From Metabacillus halosaccharovorans (GTDB lineage: Bacteria > Bacillota > Bacilli > Bacillales > Bacillaceae): a DNA stretch of 64,000 nucleotides. Shown one piece after another: positions 18,298 through 20,911 of this stretch (the stretch's first letter is position 1; each line of letters opens with the position of its first letter). Where the stretch lies: contig NZ_KV917372.1 of NCBI RefSeq assembly GCF_002019635.1, forward strand, positions 992,001 through 1,056,000, read 5' to 3'. The position numbers were made by a program, and so were the translations under genes. The notes beneath the pieces were generated by a model, which saw only the letters and a list, made by a program, of their open reading frames with translations, did no database searches and had not been told where the DNA came from.

Positions 18298-19350
<1,053 letters not shown>

Positions 19351-19675
19351 CTGTTTCACCACTACTTCTAATTTTTACTTTTTAAGATATGTAATATGCA
19401 TCAAAAAACTTGACTTTTCCCGCTTCCTATCGCGAAGATATTTGTTTCCTTATACTCTCGTTCATATTTTTACCGATCGTATAATGTGGATTGAAATCAA
19501 TTAACCAAAAAGAATCCACTTTCAAGTTTCACTTTATCCTACCACAGCCATTCTATAGGATACAAACATTTCCTTTCTAGACGTACTTAGTCATTAAAGC
19601 CTTTAAATACCTTAGTATGTTAAAAGAATTTTTTTGAAATTACTATGTATACAGATAGATGAATTGGTGATAATG

Positions 19676-19834
19676 AGTAGTAACAACATCGATTCGTTGA
19701 TGTTGTTGCCAACCGCGGAGAAGACTTACGTTTCCCCATAAGTTCTTCCTCCGGTTTCTCCTCTCCCTTTGCCTTCAGCCTTTAGGAAAAGGTATTGAAG
19801 GACCCTGCAGGATGTATCTGTAGGGTTTTTTTTG
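19676..19834 (+). ncRNA. Structured small RNA at the ylbG-ylbH locus
   Basis: Four hairpins follow each other on the plus strand. H1 is a perfect 9-bp stem (19682-19690 with 19699-19707). H2 is a long, slightly bulged stem (19711-19728 with 19739-19756) with a C-rich loop. H3 is a 6+5-bp stem (19772-19783 with 19788-19801). H4 is a terminator (ACCCTGCAG with CTGTAGGGT, 19802-19826) followed by seven further Ts. Between H2 and H3 a single-stranded TTTCTCCTCTCCCTTT tract is complementary to Shine-Dalgarno sites. A conserved RNA motif called the ylbH leader is known at this locus in bacilli. The terminator T run is on the plus strand, so this copy looks like a free RNA divergent from rsmD, not its leader. 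The promoter is unclear: GATAAT at 19670-19675 would place the 5' end just before H1. Confidence 0.7.
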
Positions 19835-19982
19835 TCCTGTTCAACGATTCAACTATCTTAACAAATTTAATATAAGAATAGACACCAAAATTAGTACACT
19901 ACCCTCTTAACTTTTTACTAGGTTCATGCTATAGTGATATTCGGTAAAATGTACGGATAAACAAATCTTTAGGGGGATAAAT

Positions 19983-20372
19983 ATGATTCAACGATTCATT
20001 GAACTTGGTGAAGGATATTCAGATATTTATGAGTTAATAGAAACTTCCAAGGCTAATCAACATAGAGTGACTCAGTTAATAGCATTACATACGAAACGTA
20101 ACACAAAAGAAGTTACTTCACTTGTTGTTATAATGAAGCCAACAGATCCTGGAAATTTTCAAGCTATTTATATTTGTCGTGAAGGAATTTCTAATCCAAA
20201 TTTTATTACAAACAAACGTTATGAGTTATTTAAAGAACTTGCAGAATTATTACATAAACAAATTATTGAAATTGAAGTAAAACCTTCATCAATGTTTAAC
20301 GAAATAGACTTATATTACCAGTATTTAATTGGTATTCTCCGTTTAAATCACTTATTACCACCATTACAGTAA
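19983..20372 (+). CDS. Conserved Bacillaceae protein, DUF7147-like
   Basis: This is a soluble protein of 129 residues with no membrane segment or known catalytic motif. It begins MIQRFIELGEGYSDIYELIE, and similar proteins in other bacilli carry the label DUF7147. TAGGGGGA lies five bases before the ATG, and TTAACT-17-TATAGT at 19907-19935 is a fair sigma A promoter. It lies just downstream of the structured RNA terminator and converges on ylbG. It is absent from the B. subtilis ylb order as I remember it. Confidence 0.7.
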   Translation: MIQRFIELGEGYSDIYELIETSKANQHRVTQLIALHTKRNTKEVTSLVVIMKPTDPGNFQAIYICREGISNPNFITNKRYELFKELAELLHKQIIEIEVKPSSMFNEIDLYYQYLIGILRLNHLLPPLQ

Positions 20373-20443: not shown

Positions 20444-20716
20444 TTATAGCCCTATCTTATAATCGTATTCTTTCGCTTTATCAACCTTTGATTCAAATTC
20501 AAGCTTTAGAAATGGTTTATATGAAGGTTCAACATGTTTAACAAACGAGTAGGATGACAGTCTTTGAATCGTTTGCTCCACAACATCCATATTGCAATAA
20601 AGCACAACATATTTTAATCGCTTTGAAACATAGTGTACATTGCCAAACTTCCTAAGCATTTTTAGTTGCTTTAATGTATGAAGCCAAACTACAATACCTT
20701 GACGCTTTTCAAACAT
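20444..20716 (-). CDS. ylbG: YlbG family protein (DUF2129)
   Basis: This is a small soluble protein of 90 residues, beginning [17 protein letters not shown]. The second ATG is chosen because AAGGGAG lies seven bases upstream of it. YlbG is conserved in Firmicutes next to ylbF and has no proven function. The core [20 protein letters not shown] (residues 22-41) alternates charged and hydrophobic residues in the way of a small alpha-beta fold. Confidence 0.9.
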
Positions 20717-20911
20717 ACTCATTCTCCCTTAATATCTAAACAGAATGTATAATTAAATCTAATCATTAAAAGTCTAGCAAAAATTTCGACTTCAAACAAT
20801 ATTTTGACAAAAATTAATAAGAAAAACACGACTTACCGCCAAAGTGGAGGAAACCGATGTTTTTTCTTATACATTAAACCTTAAGTAAATAATACGAGTG
20901 CTAGACTCGTT

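Follow-up and report, generated by a model that had tools for sequence, protein, structure and literature searches.

Genomic locus

The window, i.e. the whole 64-kb stretch of Metabacillus halosaccharovorans DNA under analysis, contains a gap flanked by rsmD (ylbH; 18784-19362, minus strand, PF03602) and by a DUF7147 gene (19983-20372, plus strand, PF23648), and ylbG lies at 20444-20722 on the minus strand. The initial annotation had placed a structured RNA between rsmD and a DUF7147-like gene, which agrees with the flanks found. The gap harbours the following features.

19646-19651, plus strand: TGTATA, -35-like element of the sigma-F/sigma-G type; in 110 aligned loci, conservation is 80-90% at T19646 and at least 90% at each of the remaining bases
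19666-19674, plus strand: GGTGATAAT, -10-like element that fits GGNNANANT; A19670, T19671, A19672 and T19674 conserved in at least 90%, the other bases in 30-99%
19676-19834, plus strand: putative CsfG sRNA gene, named after PMC3574147 and PMC8216469; 5' end guessed near 19680
19682-19707, plus strand: hairpin 1, outside the Rfam model; two-sided changes in 9 of 9 pairs, 93.6% of cells paired (63 sequences)
19713-19835, minus strand: match to Rfam RF00516 'ylbH leader' (105.8 bits; gathering score 50), on the probably untranscribed strand
19716-19753, plus strand: hairpin 2; 13 pairs, 9 of them invariant, 1 with one-sided and 3 with two-sided changes; 100% of cells paired
19729-19738, plus strand: loop CGUUUCCCCA of hairpin 2, the first C-rich segment; unpaired probability 0.76 over 19730-19739
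19755-19770, plus strand: single-stranded UUUCUCCUCUCCCUUU, the second C-rich segment; mostly unpaired, nearly invariant and the likely pairing seed
19772-19801, plus strand: hairpin 3 with variable apex and the base CCUUC/GAAGG; two-sided changes in 4 of 5 pairs, 93.3% of cells paired
19803-19833, plus strand: putative intrinsic terminator, hairpin 4 (19803-19825) and T x8 (19826-19833); two-sided changes in 7 of 8 pairs, 97.2% of cells paired

The element at 19676-19834 is very probably the local orthologue of CsfG, a plus-strand sRNA of spore-formers; this confidence refers to the identity and the strand of the element only. CsfG of Bacillus subtilis was reportedly described by Marchais et al. 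in 2011. The csfG peak at 1569212-1569347 sits between ylbG and ylbH (PMC3574147), and the element found in genome G036 at 1569199-1569319 overlaps with it. Like its B. subtilis counterpart, the element in the window is located upstream of and divergent from rsmD, near ylbG, and both share conserved C/U-rich segments, the probable strand and, presumably, the promoter type, whereas in the window the DUF7147 gene intervenes between CsfG and ylbG. In sequence, the window's copy departs from that of B. subtilis in the hairpin 1 loop, hairpin 3 and the terminator (L001 versus L002). YlbG has been called possibly involved in CsfG activity (PMC3814617). The segment name S547 is used in two ways, for CsfG itself (PMC8216469) and for a Bvs196 homologue beside CsfG (PMC9147052).

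A known ylbH leader motif, expected at this locus by the initial annotation, was recovered: the RF00516 match covers model positions 1-122, the full length, and is the only Rfam match at gathering score within the 64 kb. The gathering score of RF01820 (RoxS/RsaE) was not reached anywhere in the window. RF00516 and CsfG are one and the same DNA element, but the Rfam entry runs along the other strand, is classed as a cis leader and covers neither hairpin 1 nor the promoter. It was entered as a leader in two transcriptome papers of 2015 (PMC4342826, PMC4634765).

Secondary structure and conservation

The four consecutive plus-strand hairpins of the initial annotation, the last one followed by a T run, are present in the sequence, in the predicted fold and in pairs conserved among relatives. 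The plus-strand fold of 19660-19850 reached -63.6 kcal/mol in comparison to -43.6 kcal/mol (sd 4.4) for shuffled sequences (z -4.6; 0 of 200 shuffles as stable). With z -4.7 the minus strand folds equally well, so that folding energy alone cannot pick the strand. The structure was compared over 35 pairs in 63 diverse sequences, taken from loci that had been retrieved with the Rfam model and with the core itself, substitutions being allowed in the latter. In total 96.8% of the cells were paired (shuffled mean 92.7%; slid at most 53.2%), with the slid control biased in favour of the structure, which had been named from the window's own sequence. Two-sided changes were seen in 23 of the 35 pairs (shuffled mean 8.5; slid at most 15) and in 81 cells (shuffled mean 14.8; slid at most 30), and 0 of 500 shuffles were as high in either measure. 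Compensating substitutions alter the hairpin 2 stem in L107 and L115, two loci from the same family.

The same cells comprise 2013 Watson-Crick pairs, 93 G-U pairs on the plus strand, 18 A-C combinations, which equal G-U on the minus strand, 52 other combinations and 29 gapped cells. This wobble asymmetry (93 versus 18) appears to favour the plus strand.

A conservation profile was calculated from 110 distinct loci, the window's copy included. Conservation starts at TGTATA (19646-19651), goes on in part of GGTGATAAT (19666-19674), reaches at least 80% at every base of 19699-19776 and falls at 19834, directly after the T run; little conservation is seen at 19555-19645, on the rsmD side. The core was held with at most 5 substitutions by 111 of 117 scanned loci, by 108 of them exactly and the remaining 6 being weak second matches; as the scanned loci came from Rfam-model matches, this conservation is partly a selection effect. 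Two runs of a simple terminator scan reported none at this site on either strand, an absence that the stated rule of the scan does not explain. The putative terminator is called from the hairpin and T run in the sequence and from their conservation in relatives.

Promoter-like block and transcribed strand

The promoter-like block at 19646-19674 was absent from the sequence-only reading. We took GYATA-N13..15-GGNNANANT as a sigma-F-like and GYATR-N16..18-(C/G)ATNNT(A/G) as a sigma-G-like pattern. Among 107 distinct upstream stretches, these patterns occurred in place in 70 (sigma-F-like; 0.0005 per base-shuffled stretch) and in 75 (sigma-G-like; 0.002 per base-shuffled stretch), thus missing 37 and 32 loci, respectively. 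In the window, GTATA-N14-GGTGATAAT fits the sigma-F-like pattern, and the sigma-G-like one only if G is permitted for C. GTATA has been given as a sigma-F match (PMC4383634), and CsfG is described as being under sigma-F/G control in the forespore (PMC9147052, PMC8216469). Its expression was also reported outside sporulation, during anaerobic growth and upon glucose exhaustion (PMC8216469), with a possible induction by oxidative stress (PMC4409812).

The wobble asymmetry, the promoter-like block and the T run together would place the transcript on the strand opposite rsmD. The preference of the initial annotation for a plus-strand sRNA over a cis leader of rsmD is thus supported by the comparative data as well as by a northern blot of B. 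subtilis, in which the strand opposite ylbH alone gave a signal (PMC3574147). The Rfam reading, a cis-acting leader of rsmD on the minus strand, can invoke the type of RF00516 (Cis-reg; leader) with its minus-strand match of 105.8 bits, the equally good folding of the minus strand, the position of rsmD downstream on that strand and the terminator scan, which listed nothing on either strand. We regard it as very improbable in view of the wobble asymmetry, of a promoter-like block and a T run that both lie on the plus strand, of the poor conservation of 19555-19645 towards rsmD and of the missing northern signal on the ylbH strand (PMC3574147); a 5' untranslated region of rsmD is not what the wobble asymmetry and a T run on the other strand indicate. 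It is equally improbable that CsfG also encodes a small peptide. A frame of 22 codons starts from ATG 19673, an inner ATG at 19700 leaves 13 codons, and some ATG in frame with a TAA behind the CCCC loop occurs in 44 of the 63 sequences, 25 times with exactly 13 codons. However, ATG 19673 shares bases with the -10 element, no in-frame ATG exists in 16 of the 63 sequences and the stop motif searched for is missing in 3, the lengths vary, no Shine-Dalgarno (SD) sequence was seen ahead of 19700, and the constraint on the RNA applies to these bases in any case. The frame is taken as a by-product of RNA conservation.

Between CsfG and rsmD, TTATCCTACCACA at 19534-19546 resembles TATCCTACCATAA in several relatives and is perhaps the -10 region of a minus-strand rsmD promoter.

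C-rich segments and their likeness to RoxS and FsrA

The coordinates given by the initial annotation for a single-stranded C/U tract (19755-19770) were exact, and those for a C-rich loop fall correctly into the segment at 19729-19738. For the UUUCUCCUCUCCCUUU tract, the mean unpaired probability was 0.79 over 19754-19771 in the 63 sequences, in comparison to an all-position mean of 0.39; it exceeded 0.7 in 55 of the 63 sequences, with a minimum of 0.47, and GGTTTCTCCTCTCCC was the same in all 63. Accessible, single-stranded C-rich segments of the kind present in RoxS and FsrA were thus found, with the exception of the diverged copy in genome G118. Of 151 genomes sampled from the class, 103 contain the 17-base core CCGGTTTCTCCTCTCCC with no more than one mismatch.

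RoxS/RsaE (RF01820) likewise has a CCCC-loop hairpin followed by UUUCUCCCAUCCCCUUUG and by a terminator, and it has most of the tract in common with CsfG, where the tract reads UUUCUCCUCUCCCUUUG; it differs in being a separate gene under other control and with another 5' structure. The window's genome has its own RoxS (G000:C2:2072439-2072557). In RoxS, the third of the C-rich segments serves to block the ribosome-binding site (RBS) of ppnKB, and CsfG and FsrA have been noted as similar (PMC4409812). FsrA likewise pairs with other RNAs through C-rich segments but is Fur-regulated (PMC8216469); it is likened to CsfG by description.

Among the genomes of the family, 10 weak second RF00516 matches below the cut-off were noted and 6 of these loci were examined. 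Five (L058, L059, L060, L061 and L062) are the opposite strand of RoxS and were ruled out as CsfG paralogues. The sixth, L063:2531-2625 on the minus strand, is an unexplained match of 27.8 bits away from RoxS. The weak matches on RoxS are a sign of a C-rich layout common to CsfG and RoxS, and a shared descent of both is possible.

Target searches

The excerpts of PMC9147052 and PMC8216469 name no CsfG target. CsfG and the protein KrrA are said to regulate mRNAs, with the 2011 CsfG paper among the two works cited (PMC12456014). A search of seven genomes for 18-base complements with at most 3 mismatches yielded 62 sites, 7 of them CsfG itself, leaving 55 versus 49 for the reversed pattern and hence no clear excess of extended complements in a search that disallowed G-U pairs and admitted sites anywhere, not at RBSs only. 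The RBS-placed motif AAAGGGAGAG-N2..12-ATG gave 149 matches versus 36 for the reversed motif in 18 genomes, an excess expected of any SD-like string, given that the reversed motif was the only comparison and that some of the 149 were counted repeatedly for neighbouring ATGs. Target prediction from the CU tract, a check proposed by the initial annotation, was therefore not convincing in either search (55 vs 49; 149 vs 36).

From two sets of matches, 44 distinct places (30 loci with the RBS-placed motif and 20 from a further set, 6 shared) were judged by eye from the first residues of the proteins and had a mixed look. Among the places read were two small proteins of low complexity from the window's genome (L191, L192), which could be spore proteins. 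The best single case lies at the RBS of a gene for a 203-aa protein in G036 and G005, where AAAGGGAGAGAAGAAACATG matches the complement of CsfG at 16 of 18 bases:

G036:C1:1545545-1545564, minus strand: AAAGGGAGAGAAGAAACATG site (loci L127, L173)

The duplex of the tract with AAAGGGAGAGAA had an energy of -17.1 kcal/mol, with 3 of 500 shuffles as strong, and for the duplex with UAAGGAGGAAA 18 of 500 shuffles were as strong. Pairing with particular G-rich RBSs is thus possible. A general anti-SD binding by the tract is not supported because its affinity for the plain consensus-type SD AAAGGAGGUGA (-9.1 kcal/mol) was no better than that of shuffles, of which 282 of 500 were as strong. Given this result, the idea of the tract as an 'anti-SD mimic' was dropped in favour of a class of G-rich RBSs. 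Of the pairing with RBSs suggested by the initial annotation, the accessible C-rich segments stood, whereas no convincing target and no extra affinity for a plain SD were found.

Diverged copies and distribution

The rsmD flanks were read in eight genomes without or with a weak model match, and diverged copies were found in three of them, G118, G304 and G184, the latter two being those with weak RF00516 matches. In G118 (L205), GGTTTCTCCTCTCCCTT is kept and followed by a hairpin resembling a terminator, and hairpin 2 can no longer be recognised. In G304 (L206), CTTCCCCAT is kept as the loop on a quite different stem, with TTTCTCCTCTCCC behind it, and G184 has a copy with small changes. No copy was seen in the 850 bases read of the rsmD flank in G238, G274, G211, G295 and G147. 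The tract was predicted to be unpaired with probabilities of 0.99 in G304, 0.80 in G184 and 0.30 in G118, for which the 5' end was guessed. Because the tract persists in G304 and G118 while the preceding stem is replaced or gone, the comparison suggests that function resides in the C-rich segments, as it does in RoxS and FsrA.

RF00516 was present in all 80 genomes of the family and in 229 of 249 genomes sampled from the order, 226 of them over the cut-off under strict filters. In a test of 40 genomes for Spo0A_C, the three without it were all without an RF00516 model match. A tie to sporulation is not thereby proved, since 17 of the 40 genomes carry Spo0A_C and have no model match.

Discussion

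The sequence-only observation was right and its interpretation largely right, and the element is already known. Within a limited check of literature excerpts, our additions are small: the covarying hairpin 1 absent from Rfam, diverged copies with changed stems, and a wrong-strand model that cross-matches RoxS.

CsfG would be transcribed on the plus strand from the sigma-F/sigma-G type promoter at 19646-19674, and its transcript would end at its own terminator (19803-19833). Action in trans is the most likely mode: the UUUCUCCUCUCCCUUU tract and the UUCCCC loop may pair with particular G-rich RBSs of mRNAs of the developing spore, which would prevent translation or make the mRNA accessible to RNases. 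The anatomy, the strand signal from comparison, the conservation and the promoter-like match were observed here; the pairing and its targets we infer, the anti-Shine-Dalgarno step by analogy with RoxS and FsrA. We consider this pairing mechanism fairly probable. Among the points against it, pairing of the tract does not account for the near-invariance of the hairpin 2 stem, and the diverged copy of G118 has its tract mostly paired in the predicted fold (0.30 unpaired).

Alternatively, CsfG might mainly bind a protein through the invariant hairpin 2 and the C-rich segments, as a sponge or ribonucleoprotein, rather than pair with mRNAs. Nine of the 13 hairpin 2 pairs are invariant in the 63 sequences, extended targets were not found (55 vs 49 in 7 genomes), the tract binds a plain SD string no more strongly than its composition would predict, and an association with Hfq, by co-purification, was reported for CsfG (PMC3574147). 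We nevertheless hold protein binding as the main function to be unlikely: G304 has another stem sequence and G118 no recognisable hairpin 2, yet the tract stays, and it is by means of C-rich segments of this kind that RoxS and FsrA pair with RNAs (PMC8216469, PMC4409812).

Trans-acting pairing with particular G-rich RBSs hence remains the preferred reading. It has a broader and distinctly doubtful form, in which CsfG would damp the translation initiation of many forespore mRNAs at once by binding G-rich, non-standard AAAGGGAGAG-type RBSs through its UUUCUCCUCUCCC tract and its UUCCCC loop, both C-rich and nearly invariant.

For the family, the database label is to be corrected, as the RF00516 leader is drawn on what is probably the wrong strand. 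The wide spread of the 17-base core CCGGTTTCTCCTCTCCC in the class calls for an explanation, and the diverged copies hint at which bases matter first. If CsfG acts on many mRNAs at once, no single extended target would exist, and the variants of G304 and G118 would mark the minimal working unit of this sRNA.
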